Source of the DNA: Pseudomonas sp. PSE14
Lineage (GTDB): Bacteria > Pseudomonadota > Gammaproteobacteria > Pseudomonadales > Pseudomonadaceae
NCBI RefSeq assembly: GCF_029203285.1
Contig: NZ_CP115669.1
Location: forward strand, 186,001-250,000
Reading direction: 5' to 3'
DNA: 64,000 nucleotides
Part shown: one piece after another, positions 12,335 to 18,216 of the stretch
How positions within the stretch are numbered: the first letter of the stretch is position 1
How the letters are laid out: each line of letters starts with the position of its first letter
Program-made: the position numbers and the translations under genes
Notes under the pieces: generated by a model
Told to the model about the DNA's origin: nothing
Database searches by the model: none
The model's input: only the letters and a program-made list of their open reading frames with translations

Positions 12335-12390
12335 GGTTTACTCGCGCTCCGTTGTGCCTGCCACCCAACTGCCAGGAGGTTATTTACCGG

Positions 12391-14538
12391 ATGGCCAAGA
12401 CCGATGCGCGCCCCCGCGGCGCAGACCAAGGAGTCCTCGCCCTGCAACCCGCTTCGCAGGATATCTGGGACAGCAAATACCGCTTGAAGCACAAGAGCGG
12501 CAAACCCATCGACGGCAGCGTCGACGAGACCTGGCAACGGGTCGCCCGCGCCCTGGCCGGCGTCGAGGCGAACAAGGCGCTGCGCGAACACTGGTACGAG
12601 CGCTTCCTCTGGGCCTTGCGCAACGGCGCCATCCCGGCCGGGCGGATCATCTCCAACGCCGGCGCCCAGGGACACAAGCCCGCCACCTCGACCATCAACT
12701 GCACCGTCTCCGGGATCATCCGCGACTCCATGGACGACATCCTGCAGAAGGTCCACGAGGCCGGGCTGACGCTCAAGGCCGGCTGCGGTATCGGCTACGA
12801 ATTCAGCACCCTGCGCCCGCGTGGCGCCTACGTCTCCGGCGCCGGTGCGCACACCAGCGGGCCGCTGTCGTTCATGGATATCTACGACAAGATGTGCTTC
12901 ACCGTGAGCTCCGCCGGGGGGCGGCGCGGCGCGCAGATGGGCACCTTCGACGTCAGCCACCCGGACGTGCGCGAGTTCATCCGCGCCAAGCGCGAGGATG
13001 GCCGCCTGCGCCAGTTCAACCTCAGCCTGCTGATTACCGACGGCTTCATGGCCGCGGTGGAGAACGACGAAGACTGGCCGCTGGTGTTCCCGATCCACCA
13101 GAAGGAGCACGACGAGGTCGACCTGGAGGACGCCGAGCAGGTGGTCTGGCGCGACTGGCCGATACACGATGACTACCTGGTGGGCGAGGACGGCCGCGTG
13201 GCCTGCAAGGTCTACGGCCGGGTCAAGGCGCGGCACCTGTGGGACATGATCATGGTCTCCACCTACGACTACGCCGAGCCGGGCTTCATCCTCATCGACC
13301 GGGTCAACGAGCTGAACAACAACTGGTGGTGCGAGGCCATCCGCGCCACCAACCCCTGCGGCGAGCAGCCGCTGCCGCCCTACGGTTCCTGCCTGCTGGG
13401 CTCGGTGAACCTGACCTGCTTCGTGAATGATCCCTTCGGCGAGAACGCGCGCTTCGACTGGGAGCGGTTCCGCGAGGTGGTCCGCGTGTTCACCCGCATG
13501 CTCGATAACGTGGTGGAGATCAACGGCCTGCCACTGGAGCAGCAGCGCGCGGAAATCCTCGGCAAGCGCCGCCACGGCATGGGCTTCCTGGGGCTCGGCT
13601 CGGCGCTGACCCTGCTCAAGCTGCGCTACGGCAGCCCGGAAGCCTGCGTGTTCACCGAGGAAGTGGCGCGCGAGATGGCCCTGGTCGGCTGGGAAGTGGC
13701 CCTGGAGCTGTCCCGCGAGAAGGGCCCGGCGCCGGCTCTCGCGCAGGACTACGAAGTGACCGCCGAGATGCTGCGCAAACGTCCGGAGATGGTCGACGAT
13801 GGCTACAAGGTCGGCGACAAGGTTGCCGGCCGGGTGCTTCACGCGAAGTACTCGCGCTACATGCAGCGGGTCGCCGAGTACGCGCCGCAACTGGTGGAGG
13901 AGCTCGCTGAGCAGGGCGCTCGCTTCACCCATCACAGCTCCATCGCGCCCACCGGCACCATCAGCCTGAGCCTGGCCAACAACGCCTCCAACGGCATCGA
14001 GCCGAGCTTCGCCCATCACTACTCGCGCAACCTGATCCGCGCCGGGCGCAAGACCAAGGAGAAGATTTCGGTCTACAGCTACGAACTGCTGGCCTACCGC
14101 GCCCAGGTGGACAACCACGCGGTGCCGGACGCCGAGGAGGAAAAGCACCGTCTGCCGGACTACTTCATCACCGCCGACGACATCACCCCGCAGCAGCACG
14201 TGGACATCCAGGCCGCGGCACAGAAGTGGATCGACTCGTCGATCTCCAAGACCGCCAACGTACCCACCGACTACCCGTTCGAGGACTTCAAGGACATCTA
14301 CCTCTATGCCTGGCGCCAGGGCCTGAAGGGCTGCACCACCTTCCGCTTCAACCCGGCGGCCTTCCAGGGCGTATTGGTGAAGGAGGCTGACCTGGAGAAG
14401 ACGGTGTACCGCTTCGAGCTGGAAGACGGCAGCGTGGTGGAGCTCAAGGGCAACGAGGAAGTGGAGTACGACGGCGAGATCCATACCGCCGCCAACCTCT
14501 TCGACGCCCTGAAAGAAGGCTATTACGGCAAGTACTGA
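12391..14538 (+). CDS. nrdJa: Adenosylcobalamin-dependent ribonucleotide reductase, large part (NrdJa)
   Basis: A 715-residue class II ribonucleotide reductase that makes dNDPs using B12, without oxygen dependence. Active-site elements are present: STINCTVSG with the redox Cys, and N321-P-C323-G-E325 in NPCGEQPLPPYGSCLLGSVNL (radical Cys and Glu). The ATG at 12391 follows AGGAGG at about 11 nt; a longer reading upstream crosses the promoter boxes and is rejected. The C-terminal redox tail is encoded separately by nrdJb 18 bp downstream, the split arrangement known in P. aeruginosa (PA5497/PA5496). Confidence 0.95.
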   Translation: MAKTDARPRGADQGVLALQPASQDIWDSKYRLKHKSGKPIDGSVDETWQRVARALAGVEANKALREHWYERFLWALRNGAIPAGRIISNAGAQGHKPATSTINCTVSGIIRDSMDDILQKVHEAGLTLKAGCGIGYEFSTLRPRGAYVSGAGAHTSGPLSFMDIYDKMCFTVSSAGGRRGAQMGTFDVSHPDVREFIRAKREDGRLRQFNLSLLITDGFMAAVENDEDWPLVFPIHQKEHDEVDLEDAEQVVWRDWPIHDDYLVGEDGRVACKVYGRVKARHLWDMIMVSTYDYAEPGFILIDRVNELNNNWWCEAIRATNPCGEQPLPPYGSCLLGSVNLTCFVNDPFGENARFDWERFREVVRVFTRMLDNVVEINGLPLEQQRAEILGKRRHGMGFLGLGSALTLLKLRYGSPEACVFTEEVAREMALVGWEVALELSREKGPAPALAQDYEVTAEMLRKRPEMVDDGYKVGDKVAGRVLHAKYSRYMQRVAEYAPQLVEELAEQGARFTHHSSIAPTGTISLSLANNASNGIEPSFAHHYSRNLIRAGRKTKEKISVYSYELLAYRAQVDNHAVPDAEEEKHRLPDYFITADDITPQQHVDIQAAAQKWIDSSISKTANVPTDYPFEDFKDIYLYAWRQGLKGCTTFRFNPAAFQGVLVKEADLEKTVYRFELEDGSVVELKGNEEVEYDGEIHTAANLFDALKEGYYGKY

Positions 14539-14556
14539 TACCCCTGGAGAGACGTC

Positions 14557-15243
14557 ATGAGTGTCAAGATCAACCAGAAGATCAAAGGCTTCCAGGTGGT
14601 GGACGTGGCCGAGGAAAAGGCCCGCGCCGAGGCCGCCGCGGCCGCCGCCGTGGTGAAGATGGACGAGACCCTGCAGCGGCCGGAGATGCTGGTGGGCGCC
14701 ACCTACAAGATCAAGTCGCCGCTGTTCGAGCACGCGCTGTACGTGACCATCAACGACATGGTGCTCAATCCGGACACCCCCTACGAGCAGCGCCGGCCCT
14801 TCGAGATCTTCATCAACTCGAAGAACATGGACCACTTCCAGTGGATCGTCGCGCTCACTCGCATCATGTCGGCAGTGTTCCGCAAGGGCGGCGACTGCAC
14901 CTTCCTGGTGGAGGAGATGAAGGCCGTGTTCGACCCGCGTGGCGGCTATCTCAAGCGCGGCGGCGTCTACATGCCGTCCATCGTGGCTGAGATCGGTGCT
15001 GTGGTGGAGCGCCATCTGGTCGCCATCGGCCTGATGGAAGGTCCGCAGCTCGACGAGGAACAGCGCCTGTACCTGGCCGAGAAGCGCGCGGCCTATGAAG
15101 CGGCGCAGGGCACCAACAAGGCCGAGCCCGGCGAAGGCTTCCCCCCGGGCGCCCAGCTGTGCGGCAAGTGCAACACCCTGGCGGTGGTGCAGATGGATGG
15201 CTGCGCCACCTGCCTGAACTGTGGGCATTCCAAGTGTGGGTGA
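14557..15243 (+). CDS. nrdJb: Class II ribonucleotide reductase, C-terminal part (NrdJb)
   Basis: A 228-residue protein that supplies the missing C-terminal part of class II reductase. Its tail has the Cys-rich AQLCGKCNTLAVVQMDGCATCLNCGHSKCG, probably the redox-shuttle/zinc region that regenerates the active-site disulfide. Two conserved stretches (INDMVLNPDTPYEQRRPFEIFINSKNMDHFQW; ALTRIMSAVFRKGGD) are found in full-length NrdJ. It is co-transcribed with nrdJa and meant to work in complex with it. Confidence 0.93.
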   Translation: MSVKINQKIKGFQVVDVAEEKARAEAAAAAAVVKMDETLQRPEMLVGATYKIKSPLFEHALYVTINDMVLNPDTPYEQRRPFEIFINSKNMDHFQWIVALTRIMSAVFRKGGDCTFLVEEMKAVFDPRGGYLKRGGVYMPSIVAEIGAVVERHLVAIGLMEGPQLDEEQRLYLAEKRAAYEAAQGTNKAEPGEGFPPGAQLCGKCNTLAVVQMDGCATCLNCGHSKCG

Positions 15244-15382
15244 GCGGAAGGCTCTGCGACGCATGCGTCGCCCCGAGAACGCCTGGCCATGGATGGCCGG
15301 GCCAACGTGGACATTGGAACAACGGCGGGAATTCTCGTCCCCAGGCCTGACCTTTGCTTCTGCATGAGTTGCGTTGAGCGGA

Positions 15383-15524
15383 TTGCACTAGAGTGCAATC
15401 CGCGAGTTGCTTCAGTACGGATTATTGCATTAAATTGCAAAAAATGATGTAAAGCCTCTTCGAGATTTGCATCAAATTGCAATTTCAGATCGAATGCTTT
15501 AGGTTGAATTGCATCAAATTGCAA
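15383..15524 (+). promoter_or_regulatory. Array of four phased operators upstream of hipA-hipB
   Basis: The palindrome TTGCA-N6-TGCAA occurs four times, starting at 15383, 15425, 15467 and 15509. Every step is exactly 42 bp, four turns of B-DNA, so all sites face the same side of the helix. The first copy is extended to a perfect 12-bp inverted repeat (15378-15403); the last ends 17 bp before the hipA ATG. DNA between the sites is AT-rich, unlike its surroundings. This is most likely the autoregulatory HipB operator. A separate 16-bp palindrome (GCGACGCATGCGTCGC) is at 15256-15271, just past nrdJb. Confidence 0.75.
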
Positions 15525-15541
15525 ATTTGGCCCATCTGCCC

Positions 15542-16864
15542 ATGCCACGAACCCTCACCGTCCAGTGTTTCGTGAACGGGGTTTGGCAGGACGCCTTCAC
15601 CCTGACCTTCCAGGACCCGCTGAATCCCGGCGATACCCGCTGCACCTCGGGGTATCTGACGGACTACGTGGTCAGCCATATCGATGAGCTGAACTCGCCC
15701 TTCGAGCAATCGGTGAGCGTTTGCCAACGCCTCGGCCTGAATGTCGGCTATAGCCGCGGCTACCCGGCTTTTATCCACGACGTGATGCCCGCTGGCGCTG
15801 CGTTCCGCTCGCTGAAGAAGCGCTTCGCCGCCAGCAAGCCCGATGACATCGGGCTGGAGCTGTATCTGCTGGAGCGCTGCACGCCTTCGCCCGTTGGCCA
15901 CCTGCGCATCAAGGAGTCGCTGGGATACCTGCGCGAAGGCCGGGTGATGGGCTTCGACCGGCGAGAGGTCGTGCAGCGCAACAGCGAATTCCTGGAGTAC
16001 GCCTACGAGCAGGGCGCCGCCATCGGCGGCGCGACAGGCGCGGGTGGCGAGGCGCCAAAGCTGTTGCTGGTGGAAGCGGAGGACGGCCGCCTGTATGCCG
16101 ATGCCGTGCTTGACGACGCCCAGGTGCGCCAGCACTGGTTCGTGAAGTTCGCCAGGAACCGCGCGGCACCGCGCGACAAGGACATCCTGCGCAGTGAGTT
16201 CCACTACTACCAGGCGATCACCGCGCTGGGGATGGAGACGATCTCGACCCAGGGCATGGCCCTCGAAGACGACGGAGAACACAATCCCAGCCTGTGGATG
16301 CCACGGTTCGACCGGCGGATCACGGAGCACGGCATACAGCGCCACGCCGTCGAGTCGATCTACTCGATCTGCGGCAATGCCGAGCCGGGCTCCTTCATGC
16401 GCCACGAGGATGTCCTGCATAGACTGCTCACGCTCTGGTGTGAAGCGGGACAGACCGACCAGCTCTTCGACCTGCGCGTCGACTACATCGCTCGGGACCT
16501 GCTGAACAGGGTGCTTGGCAACTCCGACAACCATGGTCGCAACACGGCGATCCTGCGGGACGGCGGCAGGCTTCGCCTCGCGCCTATCTACGACCTGGCG
16601 CCGATGGTGCTCGACCCCGAAGGGGTTACCCGAGTCACCAAGTGGGATCATGAAGAGCGCGGCGCTCCGGATTGGCGAGCGGCCTGTCGCAGCCATGCGG
16701 ACAGCGTCACAGGAGACGAAGTCTTCGAGGCGTTGCGTGGCATCGCGGCAAAATTCAGGGCGCTGCCGGACCTGCTGACTGGACTTCCCGACGACGTCCG
16801 GCGTGCGCGGACTCTTCCGCTCAACGACCTCGATGCGCGGCTGAAGGAGTGGGGGTTGCTATGA
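15542..16864 (+). CDS. hipA: HipA-family Ser/Thr kinase toxin
   Basis: A 440-residue HipA-type kinase, probably the toxin of a type II module. In E. coli HipA phosphorylates GltX and blocks translation. Kinase elements appear intact: Gly-rich loop GGATGAGGE (162-170), Lys202 in FVKFA, Glu219, the catalytic segment GNSDNHGRN (Asp329, Asn334) and metal-binding Asp351 in APIYDLAPM. The N-terminal HipA domain includes SPVGHLRI. I prefer the ATG at 15542; an in-frame TTG at 15509 lies inside the last operator. Gene order is hipA before hipB, the reverse of E. coli. The module sits between nrdJb and thrB, which are neighbours in PAO1. Confidence 0.85.
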   Translation: MPRTLTVQCFVNGVWQDAFTLTFQDPLNPGDTRCTSGYLTDYVVSHIDELNSPFEQSVSVCQRLGLNVGYSRGYPAFIHDVMPAGAAFRSLKKRFAASKPDDIGLELYLLERCTPSPVGHLRIKESLGYLREGRVMGFDRREVVQRNSEFLEYAYEQGAAIGGATGAGGEAPKLLLVEAEDGRLYADAVLDDAQVRQHWFVKFARNRAAPRDKDILRSEFHYYQAITALGMETISTQGMALEDDGEHNPSLWMPRFDRRITEHGIQRHAVESIYSICGNAEPGSFMRHEDVLHRLLTLWCEAGQTDQLFDLRVDYIARDLLNRVLGNSDNHGRNTAILRDGGRLRLAPIYDLAPMVLDPEGVTRVTKWDHEERGAPDWRAACRSHADSVTGDEVFEALRGIAAKFRALPDLLTGLPDDVRRARTLPLNDLDARLKEWGLL

Positions 16865-17208
16865 AGGACCTGACACTGGACGAGCGCGATGAGTTGATTC
16901 GCGCCATAAGCGCGGCAGTGGCCGATGGAAGCCTCGATCTTGGCGGCGCCGTGAAGCGGTTGCGCGTAGAGGTTACCGGGATGAAGCAGGCCACTTTCGC
17001 GCGCATGTGCAAGATTTCCATGCGGGCACTCAATCACCTGGAACATGGGGATGGCAATCCGACGCTGGCCACCCTGGAGGCTGTCTTCAGGCCCTTTGGG
17101 TTGCGGATGGGGCTGGTGCGAATAGACCCCGTTGACCTCAAGAGTACCCTGACGAAAACCGAGCTCGACGGATTTGGCCTGCCCGTTGTCCAGACCACGA
17201 AGCCGTAG
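16861..17208 (+). CDS. hipB: HipB-like XRE-family antitoxin/repressor
   Basis: A 115-residue protein with a central XRE helix-turn-helix (MKQATFARMCKISMRALNHLEHGDGNPTLATLEAVFRPFGL, about residues 41-80), an N-terminal helical extension and a short tail. Its ATG overlaps the hipA stop by 4 bp (ATGA), so it is translationally coupled. It should neutralise HipA and bind the four TTGCA-N6-TGCAA sites. It differs from E. coli HipB in gene order and in its N-terminal extension, so it belongs to a divergent subgroup. Confidence 0.8.
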   Translation: MKDLTLDERDELIRAISAAVADGSLDLGGAVKRLRVEVTGMKQATFARMCKISMRALNHLEHGDGNPTLATLEAVFRPFGLRMGLVRIDPVDLKSTLTKTELDGFGLPVVQTTKP

Positions 17209-17265
17209 GGTCAACTCGCCTGAGAGCGACCCGCTCCACGGGGTGACTGTGAATACCCTGGCTCC

Positions 17266-18216
17266 TTACAGCGCAAACGGTAGATGAATCTCCACCTTCT
17301 GCCGCTTCTCCAGCCGCCGCTCGAACTCGCTCGGATCGTGGATCAGCACGTCCTGCCCGGCAAAGGCCTCGGCGGCGATCAGCCGCGACAGCCAGAAGCG
17401 CACGCAGGCCACCCGCAGCATCTCCGGCCACAGTTCGGCCTCCAGCGCGGTGAACGGCCGCTTGGCCGCATAGGCCGCCAGCAACGCGCGGGCGCGCGGG
17501 CCGTCGAGGGCGCCGTCTTCGCTGGAGCACCAGTCGTTCACGGCGATCGCCAGGTCGTAGAGCATCCAGCCCGAGCAGGCGTTGTAGAAGTCGATCAGCC
17601 CGGCCAGGTGCGGGCCGTCGAACAGCACGTTGTCGCGGAAGAGGTCGGCATGCAGGTTGGCGCGCGGCAGTGCTGGCTGCTCGGCGAGCAGGCGGGCGAT
17701 TTCTTCCAGCGCATCGGCCAGGAGGTCGGCGGCATGGCCGGACAGGTGCGACTGGAAGGCCTGGCCTTCATGCAGCATCCAGCTCAGGCCACGGTCGCTG
17801 GGGCGCTCGATGATGCGCCCGCGCGTCGCCAGGTGCAGGCGCGCCAGCAGGTCGCCGACTTCCCGGCAATGGTGGTTGTTCGGCGTCCGCTCGTGGCGGC
17901 CCGGCAGGCGCGGTTGCAGCAATGCCGGCTTGCCTTCGAGCTGGCGCAGCGCCTCGCCATCCTTCGTGCGCAGGGCATAGGGCACCGGCAGGTCGGCTTC
18001 GTGCAGGACGTCGAGCAGTTCGATGAAGAACGGCATTTCCTGCACCGGGCCGCGTTCGACCAGGGTCAGGACGAATTCGCCCTGCTCCAGGCTGACGAAG
18101 AAGTTGCTGTTTTCCGAGCCCTCGGCGATACCGCGGAAGTCGTGCAGGCGACCGAGGCCGTAGGGGGCGAGGAAGTCTTCGAGAACCGGACGTTCCAGAG
18201 GTGTGAATACCGACAT
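17266..18216 (-). CDS. thrB: Homoserine kinase ThrB (APH-fold type)
   Basis: A 316-residue homoserine kinase of the aminoglycoside-phosphotransferase-like family used by pseudomonads, rather than the GHMP type of E. coli. It makes O-phosphohomoserine for threonine synthesis. Motifs: SNFFVSLEQGEFVLTL in the N-lobe, catalytic LPRANLHADLFRDNVLF and metal-binding HLAGLIDFYNACSG. I chose the ATG at 18216, preceded by AGAGGA, over an upstream TTG. A 95-residue exported protein follows upstream by 34 bp, the PA5495-PA5494 order. Confidence 0.93.
   Translation of the reverse strand: MSVFTPLERPVLEDFLAPYGLGRLHDFRGIAEGSENSNFFVSLEQGEFVLTLVERGPVQEMPFFIELLDVLHEADLPVPYALRTKDGEALRQLEGKPALLQPRLPGRHERTPNNHHCREVGDLLARLHLATRGRIIERPSDRGLSWMLHEGQAFQSHLSGHAADLLADALEEIARLLAEQPALPRANLHADLFRDNVLFDGPHLAGLIDFYNACSGWMLYDLAIAVNDWCSSEDGALDGPRARALLAAYAAKRPFTALEAELWPEMLRVACVRFWLSRLIAAEAFAGQDVLIHDPSEFERRLEKRQKVEIHLPFAL

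Follow-up and report, generated by a model that had tools for sequence, protein, structure and literature searches.

It has long been asked how toxin–antitoxin promoters keep count of toxin relative to antitoxin, and regularly repeated operators have been described at several hip loci. In the sections of the published accounts drawn on here, cooperative binding of HipB to four operators and repression of hipBA are reported for Escherichia coli (PMC3376134; PMC3920265), and dimerisation of HipA within the operator complexes has been invoked (PMC7029023, citing another paper). The HipBST module of Legionella has three HipB operators that are evenly spaced in nearly all species and to which HipB binding was shown by EMSA, and its authors suggest an intermediate occupancy, in contrast to the cooperativity reported for E. 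coli (PMC10653801). Repeats at set intervals have been noted in the Caulobacter hipBA1 and hipBA2 promoters (PMC7029023), and a toxin-first hipAB gene order is likewise known (PMC8262856). A pitch that is conserved among relatives, such as the one described below, gives a handle on the counting question.

The present locus lies in a 64-kb stretch of a Pseudomonas genome (the window, analysed as a whole) and consists of a ladder of four TTGCA-N6-TGCAA palindromes followed by a hipA-like and a hipB-like gene (Table 1). A sequence-only reading of this DNA had placed four such sites at an exact 42-bp period upstream of a hipA–hipB pair in reversed order. Both observations hold: a pattern scan of the window returns all four as perfect matches with spacings of 42/42/42, and the reading frame with the HipA_C domain is followed directly by an overlapping HTH_3 frame. 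When one mismatch is allowed the same four remain the sole matches within the 64 kb. The accompanying argument that exact spacing over four sites is unlikely by chance stands, but the number of sites by itself is weak evidence: shuffled windows hold 1.61 matches on average (at most one mismatch) and at least four in 7 of 100 shuffles, so it is the exact spacing that carries the signal. Across the whole genome of 5,977,163 bases the perfect motif occurs nowhere except at these four sites, and the reversed pattern occurs at one genomic place per strand. Site 1 is part of a longer inverted repeat with arms at 15378-15389 and 15392-15403.

Table 1. Features of the hipAB locus and its operator-like ladder, in window coordinates.
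Feature	Position	Strand	Basis or remark
hipAB cassette including the ladder, between nrdJb and thrB	15304..17266 (approximate)	+	empty-site comparison
Palindrome 1, operator-like, TTGCA-N6-TGCAA	15383..15398	.	same start-codon offset kept in L013
Palindrome 2, operator-like	15425..15440	.	42 bp from palindrome 1
Palindrome 3, operator-like	15467..15482	.	right half would contain the -35
Putative -35, TTGCAA	15477..15482	+	highest average -35 score in an alignment of 56 promoters falls at this offset
Putative -10, TAGGTT, weak	15500..15505	+	17 nt on; TANNNT in nearest relatives and the GGCA group
Palindrome 4, operator-like	15509..15524	.	at or just past the transcription start, provided the putative promoter is correct
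hipA-like kinase gene, 440 aa	15542..16864	+	ATG at 15542; HipA_C PF07804, E 1.4e-24
hipB-like XRE/HTH_3 gene, 115 aa	16861..17208	+	PF01381, E 3e-6; ATGA overlap with hipA

The kinase gene comes first and the HTH gene second, which is the reversed hipAB or hipEB order, and the features of a HipBA-type (type II) module are present in the form of a HipA_C kinase domain with its motif residues and an adjoining HTH gene. In an alignment of 23 sequences most of residues 162-173 of the kinase, together with K202, N327-D329-H331-N334 and D351, are invariant, and we take these HipA motif residues to be the catalytic ones. Couple_hipA, the N-terminal subdomain of HipA, gives weak Pfam matches in 9 of the 23 sequences (best E 0.0034) and none in the window's protein, and the hipB-like protein matches TIGR03070 at E 1.4e-6, which is under the cut-off of that model. 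Two other identities were rejected. A 440-aa kinase that is encoded first, with hipB second and thrB next, does not correspond to HipBST, which has a separate hipS and a short kinase in the order hipB-hipS-hipT, and the presence of hipB together with a score of 46 bits against the NCBIfam YjjJ cut-off of 401 speaks against HipH/YjjJ, a one-gene type whose kinase bears an N-terminal HTH and lacks a neighbouring hipB; the alignment of E. coli HipH to the window's kinase is restricted to residues 164-365. A phage origin was also rejected, no HipA match at E<=1e-5 being found among 50,697 phage records, and a search of a defence-system library returned weak matches only.

The module is flanked by nrdJ-type ribonucleotide reductase genes upstream and by thrB downstream. 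Among 25 genomes of the genus a hipA match lies beside thrB in 3; in 18 others nrdJb is found 38-769 bp from thrB with no hipA match, and the remaining 4 have no nrdJb within the fetched flank. Matches to the window were printed for nine of these 18 empty sites; six of the nine lose homology at 15302-15332 and three at 15243-15245, and it restarts at 17264-17268. Because the homology ends before the ladder and resumes past hipB, the ladder is part of the inserted cassette. Within the fetched flanks of L001-L097, nrdJ or thrB genes are present only in L001-L003 and L013. The nrdJb–thrB junction (window 15303-17266 compared with L102-L125), which measures 38-769 bp in the hipA-less relatives, resembles a recurrent insertion site. 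The ribonucleotide reductase at 12388-15243 itself appears to be split into one ORF for a barrel protein and another for a TSCPD protein; a split NrdJ occurs in Pseudomonas.

Conservation of the ladder was followed in a set of 67 HipA homologue loci (12 in the genus, from 9 of the 25 genomes, and 55 more from genome contigs). A hipB match adjoins hipA in 62 of the 67, and from these 62 a non-redundant set of 48 Pseudomonas promoters that have few 8-mers in common was kept. The exact TTGCA-N6-TGCAA motif is present in four copies in the window's own locus (L001) and in L002 and L013, whose upstream sequences are identical, in one copy in L003, and in none elsewhere among the 67. A search for the motif alone would thus have wrongly suggested that nothing is conserved, and palindrome and comb methods were used in its place. 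Palindrome pairs 42 bp apart are found in 29 of the 48 promoters against 2.2 in shuffles, and pairs 41 bp apart in 19 against 2.0; the neighbouring distances of 40 and 43 bp occur in 3 and 6 promoters, and various other distances show smaller excesses, with a maximum of 11 of 48. A comb test that is free of any motif (three sites, exact periods 24-65) gives 42 as the best period for 34 and 41 for 10.5 of the 48 promoters, and 43 of them reach p<0.05 with one of these two periods. Five of the 48 do not reach this level with an exact period of 41 or 42, and in four of these five (L003, L021, L043 and L046) jittered site calls mix 41 and 42; such calls are out of register for L017, L040, L071, L072 and L078. 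When sites are called with clade motifs and the spacing is left unconstrained, 44 of the 48 promoters have at least two sites, and of the 106 distances between neighbouring sites 36 are 41 and 62 are 42, making 98, the eight exceptions being 10 (three times), 31, 32, 83, 84 and 124. The sequence-only reading had proposed looking for the same period upstream of homologues and had named homologues without the spacing as evidence against itself; on both counts the promoters and distances given here speak in its favour.

The operator pitch is therefore conserved while the letters of the sites drift, with half-sites of TGCA, GGCA or CGCA in different relatives. The ladder of the nearest relative (L013, with a kinase 86% identical to that of the window) illustrates this, as its sites are 81-94% and its spacers 19-54% identical to those of L001 and every spacing is 42. 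A relic of tandem duplication finds no support, since two spacers of one locus are 29% identical and a recent duplication is on that account not the cause of the ladder.

At the level of the order, a search of 390 genomes finds a kinase at E<=1e-30 in 32, among them the genome of the window. Fetching a further 29 loci, one of them without upstream sequence, gave 28 promoters. A ladder is significant in sixteen of these, with a period of 41 in 14 and of 42 in 2. There are near copies among the sixteen (L071 and L072 are such a pair, and L069 carries the upstream sequence of L062), and their half-sites include GAGCA and GTGCA. The other 12 are without a significant 41-42 bp ladder, L070 being significant at 32, L090 at 38 and 10 non-significant. 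Plasmid records that encode relatives at E<=1e-40 number 67, of which 36 are from Acinetobacter; a locus read among them, L127, has a 41-bp ladder. Among eight plasmid loci that were read, one from Acinetobacter towneri has a 41-bp ladder that agrees with 31 of 36 consensus positions, as judged by consensus score only; the others score lower, and those of Polaromonas and Rhodovastum are without a clear ladder.

The sites behave as the hip operators they had been called: perfect copies are found solely here, the ladder is absent where no hipB adjoins the kinase, and the half-site in part follows the recognition helix of HipB. A helix of the form ...RALNHLE or ...RTLVHIE accompanies TGCA half-sites, ...RALRQLE accompanies GGCA or GGTA, and SKRALSQLE accompanies CGCA; L063, L074 and L076 depart from this in combining TGCA half-sites with a helix that has no H. 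Half-site and recognition helix partly change together, in an agreement that stems largely from two clades, with few evolutionary events behind it, among the 68 of 96 loci in which the helix was extracted. For five of the 67 loci (L007, L008, L009, L011 and L012) the 4.2-4.3 kb that were fetched contain no hipB match, and their kinases are possible orphans. None of the five has a ladder (comb p 0.48-1.0), although they make up two groups of similar loci and not five independent cases. L007 and L011 are placed inside the laddered toxin-first clade by a quick kinase tree, so that the ladder appears to have been lost together with hipB.

A strict sigma-70 consensus scan detected no promoter. Alignment of 56 promoters (a set without L017, L040, L071, L072, L078, L020, L023, L047 and L064, without redundant loci and without L086-L097) tentatively suggests a position in front of hipA, where the offset chosen for the -10 ranks about sixth over the set and the site cores score highest. 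In promoters of the fluorescens group (e.g. L026 and L065) the penultimate site very often has CTATATT, a -10-like sequence, as its core, and the promoter of this group may lie inside the operator.

Other hip promoters keep other distances. The operators of E. coli K-12 are spaced 28/39/28 bp, which the pair scan recovers as a positive control and which bears out the earlier statement that the present array is unlike the E. coli one. A further comparison took 89 loci as canonical hipBA, E. coli included, of which 8 were skipped and 81 tested; their identity is presumed, 30 loci having been taken by way of a HipB model with the next gene unchecked and the others having been required to carry a small ORF upstream of hipA. 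Of these presumed hipBA promoters 49 of 81 are significant (p<0.035, 60 shuffles), where about 3 would be expected by chance. Seventeen have a pitch of 26-28 bp and 24 a pitch of 49-50 bp, none has both, and eight have neither (L133, L142, L143, L149, L152, L153, L194 and L203); a spacing within 40-44 bp is seen in 1 of the 49. The half-sites vary inside one pitch class. Ladders of 49-50 bp lie upstream of hipB in L132, L134, L138, L147, L154, L159, L163-L167 and others, with several unrelated half-sites.

For the 67 kinases placed on a quick tree the pitch labels need 2 changes, which is the minimum, against 28.8 for shuffled labels (0 of 200 shuffles as low as 2), with the tree drawn without the eight loci of neither pitch and without four short ORFs (L154, L171, L184 and L190). 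L169 was later taken out of this tree, the ORF extracted for it not being a kinase, and with L169 kept the labels need 3 changes. Given that the 28 toxin-first entries were chosen by hand among loci with a ladder, and that the canonical loci are best family matches with near copies among them and gene order unchecked for some, the tree shows an association of pitch with clade and not a rate.

With a helical repeat of 10.5 bp, a pitch of 41-42 bp corresponds to 3.9-4.0 turns, 27-28 bp to 2.6-2.7 and 49-50 bp to 4.7-4.8. The earlier proposal that four helical turns set all sites on one face of the DNA is therefore in order for this clade, but same-face alignment is not the general reason for spacing in the family, as pitches of 26-28 and 49-50 bp are not whole turns. 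To judge from these distances, clade-specific contacts are the likelier determinant of pitch than same-face phasing. It may be that Hip kinase–antitoxin complexes serve as DNA rulers, with each kinase clade imposing a pitch of its own (about 27, 41-42 or 50 bp) which persists while the letters drift, and we would put the chances of this at about even. The toxin-first clade alone would then be nearly whole-turn and same-face phased, the others, with the 39 of E. coli included, being roughly half to three-quarters of a turn off. Repression in such a family would proceed by way of a bridged higher-order array, the geometry of which would evolve with the toxin and not with the DNA-reading helix.

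For the locus itself there is good reason to think that the palindromes are autoregulatory operators of HipB, or of HipB–HipA, in a toxin-first hipAB module, and that their pitch is probably fixed by contacts between neighbours. A HipB dimer would bind each palindrome, probably carrying HipA kinases with it. RNA polymerase would then probably be blocked by the two promoter-proximal sites, which overlie the putative -35 and the start region; the two upstream sites would extend the assembly. Neighbouring complexes should touch, kinase to kinase or HipB to HipB, in a geometry special to the kinase clade, and it is this contact that is proposed to keep the pitch at 41-42 bp. Occupancy would probably be cooperative and follow the level of HipB–HipA. 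The sequence-only reading went further and put forward, as hypotheses, a HipB filament or loop and a steep, dose-dependent switching of the toxin; the intermediate occupancy suggested for the evenly spaced operators of Legionella HipBST speaks against that line of reasoning.

It might instead be expected that HipB dimers occupy the sites without touching, so that the array raises the local concentration of HipB and the range of graded repression and its pitch is inherited and without function. The three evenly spaced operators of Legionella HipBST, with gel patterns from which its authors suggest intermediate occupancy (PMC10653801), would fit such an arrangement. The spacers, however, have diverged (those of L001 and L013 are 19-54% identical, and those within a locus 29%) and yet 98 of 106 distances are 41-42, which argues against mere inheritance because inertia should have admitted indels; independent operators are for this reason an unlikely account of the ladder. 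The pitch could also follow from promoter geometry alone, 42 bp being the distance from an operator at the -35 to one at the start site and the upstream sites being decoys or serving a second promoter. The penultimate site does carry letters resembling a -35 at an unvarying offset, and in some groups the interval between the last two sites holds letters resembling a -10, but the upstream sites, which lie beyond the core promoter, share the 41-42 bp and the presumed hipBA promoters have pitches of 26-28 or 49-50 bp, all of which makes this explanation very improbable.

That a regulator other than HipB binds the sites is harder still to credit. TGCA half-sites are found with more than one type of helix, as would be consistent with such a regulator, but the genome has no further perfect copy, the sites travel with the cassette, the ladder is absent from the five loci without an adjacent hipB, and the half-site partly tracks the HipB helix. 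If contacts between operator-bound HipB complexes do set the pitch, a half-turn change in a spacer should weaken repression with the binding sites intact, and the preferred pitch should move with the module when modules are exchanged from one clade to another. The pitch may also help to locate the operators of hip loci that are as yet unstudied.

Comparison with described systems shows likenesses to several of them. E. coli K-12 hipBA also has four palindromic HipB operators upstream of the hip operon (PMC3376134), but these are of the form TATCC-N8-GGATA with the non-uniform 28/39/28 spacing, the antitoxin gene comes first, and the kinase is remotely similar. The HipBST locus of Legionella shares evenly spaced HipB operators and differs in its 53-bp gaps between operators, its six-base half-sites and its HipBST module, and the Caulobacter hipBA1 and hipBA2 promoters share repeats at set intervals and differ in belonging to hipBA modules, as far as the sections drawn on describe them (PMC10653801; PMC7029023). 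The reversed hipAB/hipEB modules (Gerdes 2021, PMC8262856) have the same toxin-first order and an HTH antitoxin; the sections of that paper drawn on here describe no operator arrays, whereas the present locus has a ladder. In searches that covered open-licence PMC papers no report was found of a 41-42 bp ladder or of a pitch that follows the kinase clade. The reversed hipAB order and evenly spaced HipB operators are already known; the 41-42 bp ladder and the association of pitch with clade are apparently new.
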